This document shows, one piece after another, positions 19,363 to 25,946 of a stretch of DNA of 28,481 nt (its first letter is position 1; each line of letters opens with the position of its first letter). This DNA comes from a virus. The notes beneath the pieces are model-generated. The model saw only the letters and a list, made by a program, of their open reading frames with translations, did no database searches and had not been told where the DNA came from. The translations under genes and the position numbers were made by a program. The stretch covers positions 1 through 28,481 of the IMG/VR virus record IMGVR_UViG_3300009155_000190; one strand, written 5' to 3'.

Positions 19363-21071
19363 TCGTATTTAAAAAGTTATCATGGAAGAATTTTCTTTCT
19401 ACTGGCAATCAACCGAATACCCTAATACTAAACAAATCATCAACCACTCTTGTTATTGGTAAGAATGGTGAGGGCAAGTCCACTTGTCTAGATGCTCTTT
19501 GTTTTGCTTTGTTCAATAAACCTTTTAGGAATATTAACAAGAGTCAGATGGTCAATTCTATCAATCAGAAAAATACTGTAGTTGAAATTGAATTTTCTAT
19601 AGGGTCAAAAGAGTATAAAATTGTCCGTGGAATAAAGCCAAATGTTTTCGAGATCTGGTTGAATGGTGAGATGGTTAACCAAGATGCTGCGTCAAGAGAT
19701 TATCAAAAGATTCTTGAGCAACAAATTCTTAAGTTAAACTATAAGACATTTACTCAAGTTGTTATATTAGGATCAGCTTCATTTGTACCATTTATGCAGC
19801 TGTCCCCTCTTCAGCGTAGGGAAGTTATCGAAGATATTCTTGACATTAGAATTTTCTCTACCATGAATCAGTTATTGAAAGAAAAACAAAATGCTACGAA
19901 GGACGAAATCACCAGAGTTGAATCCGAAATCACGCTTGCAAAGCAAAGGGTGGAGTCGCAAAGCGCAATCATCAAGACGCTATCGACCGCAAAGGAAGAA
20001 AGTATTAATGCGATACTGGGAAAGATTGCGAGTAATGAGGAGACAATCAGAACTACAAACCTTCTCATCAGCGGTATCACTGATCAGGTTACGAATCTCA
20101 GGGAGAAAATTTCATCAAGAGATGAACTCGATTCTAACATTGAAAAAGCAAAACACCTGCGATCAAAACTCTCAAGTAAAGTTGAAGAGTGTGAAAACAA
20201 TAAAGTTTTCTTCGACCAGAACCATGTCTGTCCGTCATGCACCCAAGAGATTGGAGAAGACCATAAGGTCAAAGTCTTGGGAGAGATTCATAAAAGAATC
20301 TTTGAAGATAATAAAAAGGTGGAAGAACTCGAGTCAGTCTTATCAAAGCTCAACAGCCAGCTACAAGAAGTTAATTCAATTACAAAAATGGTCGCTGATA
20401 AGACGATTGAACTCTCTACACACAACTCAGCAGTCACGATTTTAAATAGACAAAACTCAGAGATGAGATCAGAAATTGAAAACGCTAAGACTGACACTGG
20501 CAACATCAATGAAGAGAAAACAAAATTAAGACAACTAGCACAAGACGCACTAAACAATATTACACGCAAGGGTGATCTAGATTCTGATAAAGAATTACAA
20601 GATGTTGCTGGTGCGTTGTTGAAAGATACTGGTATTAAGACTGCCATTATCCGTGAGTATCTGCCAGTCATGAATAAGTTAATCAATCAGTATCTAAACC
20701 AGATGGATTCATACATCCACTTTGAGTTAGACGAATCCTTTAATGAAAAGATTCGTTCTCGTTTCCGTGATGAGTTTACTTATGCAAGTTTCTCTGAAGG
20801 TGAAAAGATGCGTATTGACTTGGCAATCTTATTCACATGGCGACAAATTGCCAAGATGAAAAACTCTGTTAATACAAACCTACTCTTGTTGGATGAGATC
20901 TTCGACTCAAGTCTAGATACGAATGGCACTGACTATTTCCTATCTTTAATGGATACGCTAGGTGAGAAGTCTAATGTATTTGTTATTTCACACAAGGGTG
21001 ACCAGCTATTCGATAAGTTTCGATCTGTAATTAAGTTCGAAAAACGCAACGATTTCTCAGTTATCATATAA
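19359..21071 (+). CDS. gp46: Recombination nuclease ATPase subunit gp46 (Rad50/SbcC-like)
   Basis: 570 residues (T4 gp46 is 560). The ABC-type ATPase partner of gp47. Walker A GKNGEGKST at residues 34-42; two coiled-coil arms (about 170-285 and 300-400) around a zinc-hook CPSC with C291 and C294, where two molecules join; ABC signature FSEGEKMRIDLAI at 478-490; Walker B LLLLDEIFD at 508-516; and a His switch in VISHKGD. All motifs are intact. The first arm (about 19900-20340) uses more C- and G-ending codons than the rest. Coupled to the preceding gene by ATGA. Hairpins and a promoter for the next gene follow its stop. Confidence 0.96.
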   Translation: MIVFKKLSWKNFLSTGNQPNTLILNKSSTTLVIGKNGEGKSTCLDALCFALFNKPFRNINKSQMVNSINQKNTVVEIEFSIGSKEYKIVRGIKPNVFEIWLNGEMVNQDAASRDYQKILEQQILKLNYKTFTQVVILGSASFVPFMQLSPLQRREVIEDILDIRIFSTMNQLLKEKQNATKDEITRVESEITLAKQRVESQSAIIKTLSTAKEESINAILGKIASNEETIRTTNLLISGITDQVTNLREKISSRDELDSNIEKAKHLRSKLSSKVEECENNKVFFDQNHVCPSCTQEIGEDHKVKVLGEIHKRIFEDNKKVEELESVLSKLNSQLQEVNSITKMVADKTIELSTHNSAVTILNRQNSEMRSEIENAKTDTGNINEEKTKLRQLAQDALNNITRKGDLDSDKELQDVAGALLKDTGIKTAIIREYLPVMNKLINQYLNQMDSYIHFELDESFNEKIRSRFRDEFTYASFSEGEKMRIDLAILFTWRQIAKMKNSVNTNLLLLDEIFDSSLDTNGTDYFLSLMDTLGEKSNVFVISHKGDQLFDKFRSVIKFEKRNDFSVII

Positions 21072-21124
21072 CCCTATAGATCGTAGGGGATTAAGACCCC
21101 TGTAGATACAAGGGTTGCAGGGGG
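21072..21124 (+). terminator. Tandem hairpins after gp46 (possible attenuator or terminator)
   Basis: Two similar short hairpins: CCCTA/TAGGG (21072-21088) and CCCTGTA/TAC-AGGG (21098-21114), with TAGAT in each loop. An alternative longer pairing joins CCCCTG (21097-21102) with CAGGGG (21118-21123). No T-tract follows, so ordinary intrinsic termination is doubtful. They lie directly upstream of the promoter for the 717-residue gene. Confidence 0.5.
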
Positions 21125-21126
21125 TA

Positions 21127-21155
21127 TTGTCTTTAATTCCGAATTAGGGGATAAT
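21127..21155 (+). promoter_or_regulatory. TTGTCTTTAATT-type promoter before the VWA gene
   Basis: -35 TTGTCT (21127-21132), 17-bp spacer, -10 GATAAT (21150-21155), 27 bases before the ATG at 21183. The -35 and the first six spacer bases (TTGTCTTTAATT) are identical to those of promoters at 23387 and 23595. Confidence 0.8.
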
Positions 21156-21182
21156 AGACTTTATATCGACTGGAGATTTTAT

Positions 21183-23336
21183 ATGATGAATTCGAAAGAC
21201 TTGTTGGCTCGCCTGTTGGCTAACGAAAATTTAAATGTGATCCGTGCCAATGTGCACACTGCATCTTTTGAGAGCAGATCAAGAACACTTACTCTTCCGC
21301 AATGGAAAGAAATGACCGATGATGTAGAGGAAATGCTCATTGGTCACGAAGTGGGTCATGCTCTTTACACCACCAACGACTATTTTGAAATGGAAGATTT
21401 TCGCAAACTTCATGGCTACATGAATGTGATCGAAGATGTTCGTATCGAAAAATTCGTCAAGAACAAATATCCAGGACTGCGCAAAGCATTCATTCAGGGA
21501 TATAAACAACTAAACGAAAAAGACTTTTTTGGAATTCAAGATAAGGATCTGTCCAAACTTCTTTTGATCGATCGAATCAATCTATATTACAAAGTTGGTT
21601 ACAACTGTGGGGTCAAATTCACTCCAGAAGAAATGGATATGGTTCGTAAAGCAGATCGTTGTGATACACCTAGTGATGTTTATGAACTAGCCAAACAAAT
21701 TTATGGCTACTCTAAAGAACAGCGTCAAAAAATGCAAGCGGAAATTGACGAAATGTTCAAACTCAATGGTGAAGATCTACCTGATGACGATGAACTTGAT
21801 GATGGTGATGATTCTTGGGATATCGATCCTTCATACGATGAAGAAGATCCAGAAGAAACACAAGAACAGATTGATGAAGAAATAGAAACTGCAAAGAAAT
21901 CTAAGAACTCCGCTCCAAAGTTTGACCCAACAGTTGATGCAGAAGAAAATTTAGAGTCTACTACTCAAGAATCTTTCCGCAAACGATTGTCTGAGTTGGC
22001 TGATGTAGATACTGTTGTGATGAACTATGCACCAGTGTTTAGTCGTCATCGTGATCCAGTTGTTCCAACAAAACAAATTCTACAAGACTTACAAACAGAA
22101 TGGGAACAATACATCGAACGATGCACAGAAAACTATTCTAAAGACTGGTGTGACACTTTCGTTTTCAATAAAAAAGAAAGCAATCAGAAGTTTAAAACTA
22201 ACTCTGCTAGGGTTGTGAATTATCTTGTTAAAGAATTCGAGATGAAGAAGTCTGCCAGCGAGTACAAACGATCCAGCACATCCAAGTCTGGCGATTTAGA
22301 TATTCGTAAGTTGCATGCGTATAAACTTACCAATGATATGTTTAAGAAAATCGAAGTGCTCCCTGAAGATAAGAATCATGGAATGATTTTCTTACTTGAT
22401 TGGTCTGGTTCAATGGGTGATGTTATTTCAGACACTGTTAAACAAGTGATCAATCTTGCGATGTTCTGCCAACGAATTCAAATTCCGTATAAGGTATTTG
22501 CGTTTAGTTCAGCCTATGATCAAGGCAACTATACTCATCCTAATAGAGTAGAAAATACACAGACTACTGGATTTGTTGATTCTCAATATCACTTGTTGGA
22601 ATTCTTTAACAACAAAATGACTAACAGCGAATTCAATCATATGGTTGATCACTTGTTGAATGAGCCATGGAGATTCGGCAAGGGTTATGGTTTGAACAGT
22701 ACTCCATTGAACGAATCGTTATTGTTTCTCGCAGACTACATCGGCAAGTTCATCGGTAACAATGCTGTAGAAAAGATGTCTTTGATTACTCTGACGGATG
22801 GTGAAGGTCATGGGTTACAACCAAATGAGTATGGTGGTTTACGAGATTACACTCGTATTACTACACCAGAGGGTTTAAGCAAACATGTGAAACTTGTAAA
22901 CTACTTGAATGATCCAATCACAAAGAAACAGTATAAATTCACTAGCATTGGATATGAACAGACTCGTGTGATGTTGCGTTTGATCAAAGATCGATACAAT
23001 ATCAAAACAGTTGGCTTCCATGTAACATCTACAAGTCGTAGGAATTTAGAGTCGTTTATTTCTAATAACATGACTACAACTAATCGTATGGAGCAATTAA
23101 ACTTCGTTGAACAGTTTAGGAAAGATTTGCGTCAGCATGACTATGCAATCGTACCCAACACTGGTCGTGATGAGTTATACTTGCTTCCTGCTTCTAAACA
23201 GAAAATTGAAGAAGGTGAGTTGAAGGTTGGTGGTGATATGTCTGCTAAGGCTATTGCTAATAAGTTTGCCAAATACCTCGATGTTAAGAAGTCCTCGAGG
23301 GTGGTCTTGAATCGCTTTGTCTCGATCGTTGCGTAA
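21183..23336 (+). CDS. CobT/NorD-like protein: zincin-like HEVGH motif plus VWA domain
   Basis: 717 residues. The N-terminal domain has HEVGH at residues 55-59 and E84 in NVIEDVRIEK, a spacing compatible with a gluzincin-type zinc site. Residues ~186-265 form a very acidic linker (DDDELDDGDDSWDIDPS; EEDPEETQEQIDEEIE). From ~395 comes a von Willebrand A domain with a complete MIDAS: D406-W-S408-G-S410, T507 in NSTPLNES and D539 in TLTDGEGHG. VWA proteins of the CobT/NorD/CoxE type partner MoxR-like AAA+ ATPases to insert metals into or remodel a client protein; the ATPase here is the gene at 23655. The client is unknown. The start at 21183 follows TGGAG; a second ATG is directly adjacent. Whether the HEVGH site is catalytic cannot be told from sequence. 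Confidence 0.85.
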   Translation: MMNSKDLLARLLANENLNVIRANVHTASFESRSRTLTLPQWKEMTDDVEEMLIGHEVGHALYTTNDYFEMEDFRKLHGYMNVIEDVRIEKFVKNKYPGLRKAFIQGYKQLNEKDFFGIQDKDLSKLLLIDRINLYYKVGYNCGVKFTPEEMDMVRKADRCDTPSDVYELAKQIYGYSKEQRQKMQAEIDEMFKLNGEDLPDDDELDDGDDSWDIDPSYDEEDPEETQEQIDEEIETAKKSKNSAPKFDPTVDAEENLESTTQESFRKRLSELADVDTVVMNYAPVFSRHRDPVVPTKQILQDLQTEWEQYIERCTENYSKDWCDTFVFNKKESNQKFKTNSARVVNYLVKEFEMKKSASEYKRSSTSKSGDLDIRKLHAYKLTNDMFKKIEVLPEDKNHGMIFLLDWSGSMGDVISDTVKQVINLAMFCQRIQIPYKVFAFSSAYDQGNYTHPNRVENTQTTGFVDSQYHLLEFFNNKMTNSEFNHMVDHLLNEPWRFGKGYGLNSTPLNESLLFLADYIGKFIGNNAVEKMSLITLTDGEGHGLQPNEYGGLRDYTRITTPEGLSKHVKLVNYLNDPITKKQYKFTSIGYEQTRVMLRLIKDRYNIKTVGFHVTSTSRRNLESFISNNMTTTNRMEQLNFVEQFRKDLRQHDYAIVPNTGRDELYLLPASKQKIEEGELKVGGDMSAKAIANKFAKYLDVKKSSRVVLNRFVSIVA

Positions 23337-23348
23337 GTTGTTGTTTTT

Positions 23349-23390
23349 ACAAGGGAAAGTAACCTTACTTTCTGTGGGGTTATCCCTTGT
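23349..23390 (+). promoter_or_regulatory. Nested hairpin after the VWA gene, overlapping the next promoter
   Basis: Outer stem ACAAGGG (23349-23355) with CCCTTGT (23384-23390); inner stem AAAGTA / TACTTT around loop ACCT (23356-23371); then an unpaired GGGG-containing segment. The right outer arm includes the TTGT of the next promoter's -35 box. No T-run follows. It may protect or end the upstream message. Confidence 0.5.
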
Positions 23391-23415
23391 CTTTAATTGC
23401 AGAGTGCGGTATAAT
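23387..23415 (+). promoter_or_regulatory. TTGTCTTTAATTGCAG promoter before the 49-residue gene
   Basis: -35 TTGTCT (23387-23392), 17-bp spacer ending in TGCGG, consensus -10 TATAAT (23410-23415), 28 bases before the ATG at 23443. Shares TTGTCTTTAATTGCAG with the promoter at 23595. Confidence 0.88.
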
Positions 23416-23442
23416 AGATTATAAACTTGAAAAGGATTTGAT

Positions 23443-23592
23443 ATGTGGAATGAATTTACAGACAATGAACTATATAATCTTTGCTTTGAATATGGCATCG
23501 AATCAGAATGTATTATGTTGGGAAATCGATTAATCAACCGACCAGAAGTTGAGCAAGTGTTAACTGCTTTTGAATATGATCTTGCATATTAA
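23443..23592 (+). CDS. 49-residue protein of unknown function
   Basis: Sequence begins MWNEFTDNELYNLCFEYGIE and ends TAFEYDLAY; 49 residues, acidic, probably two or three helices, with Cys at 14 and 23. It is unrecognised. Support for its being real: a consensus promoter 28 bases upstream, an AAAGGA ribosome site at the right distance, no overlap with neighbours, and a second promoter of the same family starting right after its stop. It sits between the VWA protein and its probable AAA+ partner, so an adaptor or regulatory role is possible but unproven. Confidence 0.75.
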   Translation: MWNEFTDNELYNLCFEYGIESECIMLGNRLINRPEVEQVLTAFEYDLAY

Positions 23593-23594
23593 GA

Positions 23595-23623
23595 TTGTCT
23601 TTAATTGCAGTTTGTGGTAAACT
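23595..23623 (+). promoter_or_regulatory. TTGTCTTTAATTGCAG promoter before the AAA+ gene
   Basis: -35 TTGTCT (23595-23600), 17-bp spacer ending in TGTGG, -10 TAAACT (23618-23623), 31 bases before the ATG at 23655. It begins 3 bases after the stop of the 49-residue gene. Confidence 0.8.
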
Positions 23624-23654
23624 TATATTATTCGTTATGAAAGTGGAGTGAAAG

Positions 23655-24815
23655 ATGGCTAAAATTGATAATGCATTCGTGCAAAAATTTGAAGATAAAA
23701 TGTATGAGATGTTTCCAGATGCTAAAACAAATAGCACTGTGAATCGCCAGCAACTGCTAGAAGTTATGGCAAAGTTGAAGACAGACAAATACCCTTTGTG
23801 GCTTATGAAAACCAAAGTTGGTCGTGGCTTGTATGCAATTCCTGGAGGTAGTATCACTGCCCCTGTTGTTGGAAACAATGCTCTGGCACCTGAACGAAAT
23901 GAAAGTGTGATTGTGGATTATACAAACACAGACTCCCTTATTCCTAAACTGGATGCGAACTATGTTCCATTCGGTAACTACAAAGACTTGGAACAAATTA
24001 TTATTTCCAAGCAATTCTACCCTGCATATATTTCTGGTCCAACTGGGAATGGCAAGTCAACATCGATCGAACAGATTTGTGCTAAGCACAGTCGTCCTTT
24101 GATTCGTGTGAACTTGAACAAGATGACAGACGAAGATCAACTGATTGGCTCTAAGACTCTTGTCGATGGTAATGTCGAGATTGTTGAAGGTCCAGTCATG
24201 GTGGCAATGCGTATGGGTATCCCTCTGTTGCTCGATGAGATCGATGCTGGTGGTGCTAACACCTTGCTGTGCTTGCAACCCATCCTTGAAGGCAAACCAT
24301 TCTACTTCAAACTAAAGAACGAGATGGTATATCCTGCAATTGGATTCAACCTGTTTGCAACTGCAAATACTAAGGGTAAGGGTTCAGACGATGGTCGCTA
24401 TATTGGTACCAATGTACTGAACGAAGCATTCTTGGAACGATTTGCAGTAACTTTCAATCAGGAATACCCTGACCAGAAAGTTGAGAAAAAGATTGTCTGC
24501 AATCTTATGAAGTCGTATAATTGTTTAGATGACGAATTTGCAACCACTCTTGTAAAGTGGGCTGAAGCGATCCGTCGAACCTTTGACGCTGGTGGTGTTG
24601 ATGAAACTATCACTACTCGTCGTCTGATCCATATTGTTCGAGCATTCTCGATCTTTAAGAATCAGAAGAAAGCAGTTGAGTTGTGTACTAATCGCTTTGA
24701 CGACGCAACCCGACTCGCCTTTGTTGACTTGTTTGACAAAGTGTCTAGTGGAGATGTTCTTGTTGAGCAAGAACAACCTACTGAAGCAACCCCTGTCGAA
24801 GCACAAACTGTTTAA
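23655..24815 (+). CDS. cobS-like: MoxR/CobS-like AAA+ ATPase
   Basis: 386 residues. AAA+ core: Walker A GPTGNGKST (128-136), Walker B LLLDEID (191-197), sensor 1 ATANT (235-239) and candidate Arg finger R262 in FLERFAV. Segments VNLNKMTDEDQLIG and PILEGKPFYFKL are typical of the CobS/MoxR branch. CobS homologues are common in T4-like cyanophages and are labelled as cobaltochelatase subunits, but no cobalamin gene is visible here. The more likely role is to work with the VWA protein encoded upstream. The N-terminal ~100 residues form a separate domain with YPLWLMKTKVGRGLYAIP (46-63), also seen in the 124-residue neighbour. The acidic, Thr/Pro-rich C-tail (EQEQPTEATPVEAQTV) is probably disordered. 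A GTGGAG ribosome site lies upstream. Confidence 0.9.
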   Translation: MAKIDNAFVQKFEDKMYEMFPDAKTNSTVNRQQLLEVMAKLKTDKYPLWLMKTKVGRGLYAIPGGSITAPVVGNNALAPERNESVIVDYTNTDSLIPKLDANYVPFGNYKDLEQIIISKQFYPAYISGPTGNGKSTSIEQICAKHSRPLIRVNLNKMTDEDQLIGSKTLVDGNVEIVEGPVMVAMRMGIPLLLDEIDAGGANTLLCLQPILEGKPFYFKLKNEMVYPAIGFNLFATANTKGKGSDDGRYIGTNVLNEAFLERFAVTFNQEYPDQKVEKKIVCNLMKSYNCLDDEFATTLVKWAEAIRRTFDAGGVDETITTRRLIHIVRAFSIFKNQKKAVELCTNRFDDATRLAFVDLFDKVSSGDVLVEQEQPTEATPVEAQTV

Positions 24816-24837
24816 TTTTAATTGAAGGAAATATATT

Positions 24838-25212
24838 ATGTTGAAGTATTCTGATCTGTCTAAATCGCAAAAGCGTTTCGTAGATGCAGTAATTGAGGTT
24901 CGCCCTAATCTTGCCACTGGTGGGACAATTACTCTTAAAGAGTGTGCTGCAGTTTATTACGAACTGCGTGAAACTCGCACTGGTGCCAAAGGTGAGAAAA
25001 TTGGTTACCCTAACTGGCTCTATGCTGCAAACAAAATCTCTCGTGGTGTTTATGACTTCCCTGCACCCAATGCAAAGTCTAAGAAAACTAAAGTTGCAGA
25101 TGATGTAACAAAGTTGGAAAAAATAATTGCCGAGAGTGATCCAGTTGAGGTAGAATTACAGTCTGACGCAGAGTTCTTAAATGAACTTCGTGCTAATGGA
25201 ATCGCTGTTTAA
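24838..25212 (+). CDS. Small protein sharing the N-terminal domain of the CobS-like ATPase
   Basis: 124 residues. YPNWLYAANKISRGVYDFPAP (starting at residue 57) aligns with YPLWLMKTKVGRGLYAIPG in the ATPase just upstream, sharing YPxWL, RG-x-Y and P. The preceding SQKRFVDAVIEVRPNLATGG also resembles the ATPase N-terminus in layout (helix, then a Thr-rich turn). So this looks like a free-standing copy of the ATPase's N-terminal domain. A basic hinge (KSKKTKVADD) and an acidic C-terminal helix complete it. It may compete for or bridge the ATPase's partner; this is inference. A GAAGGAA ribosome site lies before the ATG and a terminator follows the stop. Cotranscribed with the ATPase. Confidence 0.75.
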   Translation: MLKYSDLSKSQKRFVDAVIEVRPNLATGGTITLKECAAVYYELRETRTGAKGEKIGYPNWLYAANKISRGVYDFPAPNAKSKKTKVADDVTKLEKIIAESDPVEVELQSDAEFLNELRANGIAV

Positions 25213-25264: not shown

Positions 25265-25291
25265 ATTTGATGGTTAATGGAGTTATATTAT

Positions 25292-25549
25292 ATGTCTAAA
25301 CAAGACTTGTTGTTGAAACACTTGAACGCTGGTAAAGCATTCACCGCAAAGCAGATCTCTGCTTCCTTTGGTCTTGCTCATCCAGCATCCACAATCCGTA
25401 ACTTGCGTGAGCAAGGCTACTGCGTTTACTCAAACCCAGCAGTTGTGAATGGTACTGAAGTTGTTAAATACCGTATTGGTAAACCAACTCGTGCGATGGT
25501 CGCTTTGGCTAATCGTGTTGCTGGTTCTACTGTATTTACTCGTGCTTAA
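25292..25549 (+). CDS. Small winged-helix DNA-binding protein
   Basis: 85 residues from the ATG at 25292, preceded by GGAG at a proper distance; an upstream in-frame ATG (25277) overlaps this ribosome site and is less likely. Residues ~3-65 look like a winged helix-turn-helix: KQDLLLKHLNAGKAFTAKQI, ASFGLAHPASTIRNLREQGY, CVYSNP, then the wing VVKYRIGK. This pattern (helix, AKQI-x-x-x-FG turn, recognition helix with IRNLREQGY) recurs in small phage regulators. It lies between two terminator-like hairpins, so it is a single-gene unit, yet no clear promoter is seen in the short gap. Its target is unknown; the shared promoters nearby are candidates. Confidence 0.75.
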   Translation: MSKQDLLLKHLNAGKAFTAKQISASFGLAHPASTIRNLREQGYCVYSNPAVVNGTEVVKYRIGKPTRAMVALANRVAGSTVFTRA

Positions 25550-25610: not shown

Positions 25611-25946
25611 ATGGCGACCAAAGAAGATATTAAAAAGTCACAAAATGCCACCACAGGTGGTCGTAAATTCGATGGAGGTAAACTACAATATGGTTTGCTT
25701 CCACCACTCGCATTAAAAGCGACTGTAGAAATTCTAACATTTGGTGCGGAGAAATACGAACCAGATAATTGGAAGAATGTTCCTGACTCAAAACGAAGAT
25801 ACTTTGACGCAATGCAAAGACATCTTTGGGCATGGAAAGAGGGAGAGCAAAATGATCCCGAGACTAGTAAGAATCATCTGGCACACGCAATGTGCTGCCT
25901 AATGTTCTTGTACGAGCATGATATAAAGTATTCAGTTGAAAAATAA
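25611..25946 (+). CDS. MazZ-like dATP/dGTP pyrophosphohydrolase (DUF5664-type)
   Basis: 111 residues. RKFDGGKLQYGLLPPLALKA (18-37), then TVEILTFGAEKYEPDNWKNV (38-57), RYFDAMQRHLWAWKEGE (63-79), and NDPETSKNHLAHAMCCLMFL (81-100) are the conserved blocks of the small all-alpha pyrophosphohydrolase family that includes MazZ of cyanophage S-2L. MazZ hydrolyses dGTP or dATP to the monophosphate and, with PurZ, supports 2-aminoadenine DNA. No PurZ is in this window, so a more general nucleotide-pool role is equally possible. GGAGAG ribosome site before the ATG. It is followed by the gp45 promoter. Confidence 0.8.
   Translation: MATKEDIKKSQNATTGGRKFDGGKLQYGLLPPLALKATVEILTFGAEKYEPDNWKNVPDSKRRYFDAMQRHLWAWKEGEQNDPETSKNHLAHAMCCLMFLYEHDIKYSVEK

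Follow-up and report, generated by a model that had tools for sequence, protein, structure and literature searches.

A phage MoxR-type ATPase and its zincin-like VWA partner as a candidate protein-remodelling machine linked to DNA replication

Several described systems pair an AAA+ ATPase ring with a partner that carries a von Willebrand factor A (VWA) domain. Such a pair is encoded in the 28,481-base virus record IMGVR_UViG_3300009155_000190 (the window, by which we mean the whole stretch of DNA analysed), which derives from a T4-like phage. Here a 717-residue VWA protein with a zincin-like N-terminal domain and a 386-residue MoxR/CobS-type ATPase are accompanied by two small proteins of 49 and 124 residues, P49 and P124, and we refer to the four genes as the module. 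The pair itself is not new. As cobS, the ATPase gene was present in every cyanophage genome of a 2010 survey (PMC3037559) and has counted as cyanophage core since at least that year, with its cobalamin explanation left untested, and two papers of 2021 assign the pair incompatible functions. What we add is a test between these published readings. The predicted architecture, a MoxR-type AAA+ ring with a VWA partner bearing a zincin-type metal site, is well supported by sequence conservation and structural models. Our preferred reading, to which we give a probability of roughly 0.45, is that the pair forms an ATP-driven, metalloprotease-bearing protein-remodelling machine that serves DNA replication or recombination, and is neither a cobalt chelatase nor primarily a virion-assembly factor.

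The closest description comes from Iyer et al. 2021 (PMC7824862). The portion of that paper used here reports the same layout for group 2.2 jumbo phages, a MoxR ATPase gene next to one for a vWA protein that starts with a metallopeptidase domain, and proposes a role in virion assembly; the match is one of description, and that portion says nothing of P49 or P124. Liu et al. 2021 (PMC8651126) describe the same gene pair as cobST, consider 'peptidase' a misannotation and propose that the pair hijacks host CobN. In contrast to the cobalamin role given to viral cobST (PMC8651126, PMC3037559), the pair in the window has an invariant metal site and falls short of the CobT and CobS cut-offs. CobS-CobT itself is likewise an AAA and VWA pair, and CobS is the best full-length match of the phage ATPase among PDB sequences (E 7e-37), but the CobT examined has no HExxH, no CobN was found in the seven phage carriers searched, and the window pair does not reach the equivalog cut-offs.

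NorQ-NorD (PMC13036017; 9qhe, 9qh8), as presented in the excerpt consulted, also joins a MoxR ring to a VWA protein with an N-domain, a flexible linker and a VWA domain. It provides the best fold match for the phage VWA half and one of the best for the ATPase half. Its client, nitric oxide reductase, is however absent from the window, and the excerpt of PMC13036017 reports no HExxH for NorD, a difference from the phage protein drawn by description only. Midasin/Rea1 and RavA-ViaA likewise combine an AAA+ ring with a client-binding VWA domain that bears a metal-ion-dependent adhesion site (MIDAS); their clients belong to ribosome assembly or are respiratory or decarboxylase enzymes, and in midasin the AAA and VWA parts are fused. 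The IncC/MOBH plasmid set, RecT/bet-exo-(MoxR)-DUF3150-VWA, has the same HExxH...NxxED VWA protein and a MoxR-type ATPase beside recombination genes, but a DUF3150 partner takes the place of P49 and P124, and the element is a conjugative plasmid with no virion.

Conservation and fold of the two large proteins

An open-reading-frame check returned the positions and lengths that an earlier note, made from the sequence alone, had given for all four genes. The features of the two large proteins in the window are as follows.

21183..23336, + strand: zincin-VWA protein, 717 residues; PHROG 459 'peptidase' (phrog_459, E 3e-181 across residues 4-717)
21183..21770, + strand: N-terminal zincin-like domain, residues 1-196; HEVGH at nucleotides 21345-21359, E84 at 21432-21434
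22398..22799, + strand: VWA-domain MIDAS, D406-x-S408-x-S410, T507 and D539
23655..24815, + strand: MoxR/CobS-type AAA+ ATPase, 386 residues; PHROG 249 'porphyrin biosynthesis' (phrog_249, E 9e-101), AAA_5 (E 5e-14)
23655..23846, + strand: ATPase N-domain, residues 1-64; predicted order H-H-E-H-H-E-E, model pLDDT about 80-94 over most of it
24036..24059, + strand: Walker A, GPTGNGKS, residues 128-135
24225..24245, + strand: Walker B, LLLDEID, residues 191-197

The metal-site residues of HEVGH, the E84 and the complete MIDAS that the note had picked out proved invariant in an alignment of relatives. Our alignment of VWA proteins holds 102 distinct sequences, 99 of which cover the HExxH region; H55, E56 and H59 (HEVGH, residues 55-59) are unchanged in 99/99, N81, E84, D85 and R87 in 101/101 (E84 within NVIEDVR), and all five MIDAS residues in 102/102. 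Such conservation argues against chance motifs, and H55, E56, H59 and E84 together make up the conserved HExxH and third acidic ligand expected of a zincin metalloprotease. In the model of the protein (pLDDT 80.8), an N-domain is followed by a disordered acidic linker (residues 197-248), a helical region, the VWA domain and a C-terminal helix, and the predicted order within the N-domain is three strands, the HExxH helix and the Glu helix. Its best fold matches by Foldseek were the NorD VWA domain inside the NorQD complex and MDN1-MIDAS, both partners of AAA rings.

Both Walker motifs are kept in a 45-sequence alignment of the ATPase, and the sensor segments are intact and conserved, as had been claimed. 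Its core also matches CbbQ_C (E 2e-5) and its best folds by Foldseek are CbbQ and NorQ (E 1e-17 to 1e-16); this AAA_5/CbbQ-type core, the conserved motifs and the CbbQ/NorQ fold place it among MoxR-type AAA+ proteins. From the order of its predicted elements, we read the ATPase N-domain as winged-helix-like.

The metal site extends beyond T4-like relatives. The seven invariant residues of the N-domain persist down to 20% identity in a profile of residues 1-196, built from relatives with the plasmid and other-phage test proteins left out. This profile matched VWA proteins of an IncC plasmid (E 9e-17), Rhizobium phages (5e-16 and 5e-14), a Citrobacter MOBH plasmid (2.5e-14), T5S1 (2e-14), an E. 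coli phage-plasmid (2e-14), SSU5 (1e-13), IncHI2 (1e-11) and pTK9001 (4e-11), and a profile-profile comparison of the HExxH...NxxED domain gave 99.4% (E 3e-21). ICP2 and Woes have HExxH with marginal profile scores; the record of Pseudoalteromonas phage XG4, in which the VWA match spans two frames, was used for the motif only. The two His ligands are missing from the VWA proteins of nickie, BUCTxx99 and an Acinetobacter plasmid (SEISK, REVST and QEVAK), all of which nonetheless keep the pair with the ATPase. The plasmid and His-less genes in our locus set (L numbers) are:

L222 7983-9779, L223 5995-7908, L224 4654-6660, L225 5026-6708: HExxH-VWA genes of conjugative plasmids (IncC, IncHI2 and others), with a MoxR-type ATPase and DUF3150
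L200 3358-5442, L215 2983-4968, L227 5995-7917: His-less VWA genes of nickie, BUCTxx99 and the Acinetobacter plasmid

A bona fide CobT encoded beside cobS lacks the HExxH...NxxED site. Direct homology between the zincin domain and the N-domain of genuine CobT was unsupported for Pandoraea CobT (E 1.4). The SSU5, T5S1 and IncC proteins, in addition to matching the zincin profile, pass the PF06213 CobT cut-off, and it is therefore plausible that all belong to one superfamily in which CobT lost the metal site, the link to CobT being indirect through these three.

Distribution and gene neighbourhood

The earlier note had named absence of co-occurrence as refuting its reading; in a survey of metagenomic virus contigs, co-occurrence of the two genes was strict (many of the loci were retrieved through P124 rather than the VWA protein). 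Every VWA gene with at least 5 kb downstream has a same-strand ATPase gene (95/95, median gap 98 nucleotides), and every ATPase gene with at least 6 kb upstream has a VWA gene there (42/42). With the complete MIDAS, this is the arrangement expected of a MoxR-VWA pair. Among named phages, the VWA protein appears in 463 records and the ATPase in 821, with equal counts of the two for Synechococcus (365), Cyanophage (61) and Prochlorococcus (24). There is no support for the idea that the module is peculiar to this phage or seen here for the first time: the pair is cyanophage core, was described twice in 2021, and also occurs on conjugative plasmids and in some bacterial metagenome-assembled genomes (MAGs). 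Two Chloroflexota MAG contigs carry the ATPase gene with a zincin-VWA gene directly after it (L189 2659-5759, L190 1744-4991), an nSTAND1-WD40 gene lies near the pair in L190, and a search for more cellular copies gave only 2 of 249 genomes of the class of L190. Most other matches on genome contigs adjoin gp46, gp45 or gp44, and were therefore taken as phage contigs and not counted as bacterial.

Herelleviridae ATPase genes annotated 'porphyrin biosynthesis' or AAA lie beside a 282-residue protein (L198 5941-6825, L199 5740-6756). We rejected them as the same pair, as these neighbours have neither HExxH nor DxSxS; the 'porphyrin biosynthesis' label may thus cover a different pair in this family too.

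After the head and tail genes that fill the first half of the window come uvsY, uvsW, gp55, gp47 and gp46, then the module, then gp45 and gp44, so that the placement between recombination and replication genes claimed for it stands. (Window genes without a scan were named from sequence reading and synteny with annotated relatives.) T4-like phages share the order gp47-gp46-VWA-AAA-gp45-gp44. Elsewhere, the pair follows DNA polymerase-UvsX-primase/helicase in DLP6, adjoins DNA polymerase and primase in Zobellviridae, and in phage-plasmid-type phages has DNA ligase or primase 5′ and DnaE 3′, or DNA ligase upstream. Plasmid arrangements are MoxR upstream and then ssb-bet-exo-DUF3150-VWA in IncC, RecT-exo-MoxR-DUF3150-VWA in the Citrobacter plasmid, and AAA-DUF3150-VWA-toprim in IncHI2.

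Competing explanations and a proposed mechanism

Liu et al. and earlier cyanophage papers hold that the pair hijacks a host CobN/ChlH-type subunit for more cobalamin, for example for ribonucleotide reductase (RNR) (PMC8651126). Beyond the ATPase's closeness to CobS, it speaks for this that some relatives in other phages exceed CobT cut-offs and that cyanobacterial hosts possess a CobN/ChlH-type protein (control match in Synechococcus elongatus). We nevertheless consider it highly unlikely. Against the CobS equivalog TIGR01650, the ATPase scored 96.7 bits, far from the cut-off of 558.55. CobT families (PF06213, PF11775) were matched neither by the window's VWA protein nor by those of HTVC008M, DLP6, OC and S-PM2; PF06213 matched 4 of 64 VWA relatives weakly (best E 0.05), and a bona fide CobT lacks the site that is invariant here. 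CobN (PF02514) was absent from all seven carrier phage genomes searched, the window being a fragment. The hosts of carriers HTVC008M and Mosig are SAR11, a B12-auxotrophic clade (PMC9296465), the small subunit of class I, B12-independent RNR is encoded by 13 of 17 sampled carriers while class II exceeded its cut-off only in T5S1, and psbA is absent from nine long relatives, some of them fragments, which sets these apart from cyanophages. The note's view of the cobalamin explanation as weak is borne out, though cobalamin may still be a side role in cyanobacterial hosts. A chaperone for virion assembly or maturation that would also process structural proteins by peptidolysis has been proposed in print on the model of Acidianus two-tailed virus, with an archaeal-virus MoxR-vWA system as precedent (PMC7824862, in the portion used here), and the presence of cobS in every genome of the 2010 cyanophage survey is consistent with it. 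We judge this unlikely as well. The homologous pair occurs on conjugative plasmids, and because these build no virions, virion assembly cannot be its common function. The window module, moreover, lies within the replication cluster, ~6 kb past the structural genes, and has sigma-70-like promoters. T4 assembly chaperones can be expressed early, however, so position and promoters are not decisive, and a virion role in phages may exist.

Two further explanations stay closer to the neighbourhood or to the mobility of the pair. Insertion of a metal cofactor into a replication-related metalloenzyme, such as the iron centre of class I RNR, would make the N-domain a metal-delivery site rather than a protease. 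It would fit the relatives NorQ, CbbQ and CobS, the insertion of iron by NorQD, the NrdB of 13/17 carriers and the RNR maintenance gene yfaE ~3 kb from the VWA gene in IncC; it is made quite improbable by ICP2 and Woes, which have the pair and in which no NrdB or NrdJ was found, by the class II enzyme of T5S1, and by the retention of the HExxH Glu even in relatives that have lost both His ligands. A machine that dismantles a host defence complex, instead of serving replication, would suit the spread over phages and plasmids and the Chloroflexota copy that adjoins an nSTAND-WD40 gene. Yet the pair is core, single-copy and syntenic with replication genes, not placed in variable anti-defence islands, and PADLOC gives weak generic AAA matches only; we regard this as quite unlikely too. 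Neither the virion-assembly reading of Iyer et al. nor the CobST reading of Liu et al. is favoured by the present tests.

In favour of a remodelling machine serving replication or recombination stand the invariant metal site and MIDAS, the strict pairing, the NorQ/CbbQ and NorD/MDN1-MIDAS folds, the mechanism of NorQD, the gene neighbourhood, the sigma-70-like promoters with no late box upstream, and the intact site in plasmid and other-phage proteins kept out of the profile. This reading has points against it as well. Structure prediction, one of the note's own checks, yielded a zincin-like order of elements but no match to a solved zincin; all Foldseek matches of the VWA model were to VWA proteins, and PDB sequences gave nothing significant when searched with the VWA alignment or its N-domain alone. 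We infer the zincin fold from motif, conservation and the predicted order of elements. Three relatives keep the pair although both of their His ligands are lost, so cleavage is not essential everywhere. Settings beside replication or recombination genes number four of five when related groups are counted once, a raw count without a formal background; the exception is Gordonia phage Woes, whose nearest annotated replication genes are ~10 kb off. Replication-cluster genes can, in addition, have other functions.

In NorQD, a finger of the VWA protein inserts into the pore of the ATPase, and the partner's linker is twisted upon hydrolysis (PMC13036017, excerpt consulted). By analogy, the phage VWA protein might dock in the pore of its ATPase with a client bound at the MIDAS; the ring, hydrolysing ATP, would pull or twist this client, held by MIDAS and N-domain. 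The N-domain would then cleave it at the putative zincin site. P124 may extend docking by the ATPase N-domain or compete with it, and P49 may be a small regulator. The client would probably be a protein complex that sits on DNA or belongs to the replication/recombination machinery, targeted early or in mid infection. It is possible, if doubtful, that the phage and plasmid genes labelled 'CobS/CobT', 'peptidase' and 'porphyrin biosynthesis' for the most part encode a single widespread machine linked to replication/recombination, a metalloprotease driven by ATP that clears or matures DNA-bound protein complexes, with true CobT as a derived branch without the protease site. The conserved metalloprotease site, the recurrence on plasmids and the neighbourhood bring the function within reach of point mutants, and the outcome would bear on how hundreds of phage records and many plasmid records are annotated.

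Small partners, promoters and flanking genes

The small proteins and the predicted promoters of the window module are:

21127..21155, + strand: sigma-70-like promoter 5′ of the VWA gene, TTGTCT - 17 bp - GATAAT, with the shared TTGTCTTTAATT
23387..23415, + strand: promoter 5′ of the P49 gene, TTGTCT - 17 bp - TATAAT
23443..23592, + strand: P49, conserved small protein, 49 residues; relatives at 53 module loci
23595..23623, + strand: promoter 5′ of the ATPase gene, TTGTCT - 17 bp - TAAACT
24838..25212, + strand: P124, free copy of the ATPase N-domain (hhalign against that domain) with a C-terminal tail

P49 relatives lie just before the VWA gene in 50 of 53 loci and just after it in three, namely this phage and near relatives (compared with L004, L107, L116 and others), which suggests that the gene moved yet stayed with the module. 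A match of P49 to effector-associated domain 7 (EAD7) stayed below threshold. That P124 carries the N-terminal motif of the ATPase was confirmed by hhalign (97.8%, E 9e-13) and BLASTP (E 1.6e-5). It is encoded within 300 nucleotides after the ATPase gene in 109 of 114 loci, the other five having no ATPase gene; many relatives have an added Lys/Ala-rich linker, and a conserved tail ends all of them. Neither small protein had a match among named phages.

The module had been credited with its own promoters. TTGTCTTTAATT has exactly three mismatch-free copies in the 28 kb (at 21127, 23387 and 23595). They lie 5′ of the VWA, P49 and ATPase genes with a -10-like hexamer 17 bp away in each case, which upholds the claim for these three as consensus sites; no such site lies upstream of the P124 gene, and the promoter type is not confined to the module. 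The VWA promoter is conserved in L082 and present in diverged form in L083, L002, L003 and L018. We rejected TTGTCTTTAATT as a module-specific signal: a 161-kb relative has it in front of unrelated genes too, and it therefore resembles a common phage promoter of early/middle type. Of 305 regions upstream of module genes, one has the late box TATAAATA, and none of those of the window module does, although with one occurrence in the whole window this absence is weak evidence alone. Hairpin-like inverted repeats at 21070-21130 and 23345-23390 (e.g. ACAAGGGA...TCCCTTGT) precede the VWA and P49-gene promoters and may be terminators or processing sites.

Beyond P124, window positions 25277-25549 encode a small winged helix-turn-helix protein (HTH_39, E 7e-5) whose place after P124 is kept in many relatives, and 25611-25946 a dATP/dGTP diphosphohydrolase-type protein (PF18909, E 2e-34), a nucleotide-pool enzyme adjoining the module. 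At the other end of the window, the C-terminal end of the open frame at 1-1008 resembles, by eye, the S74-type intramolecular chaperone of tail fibres.

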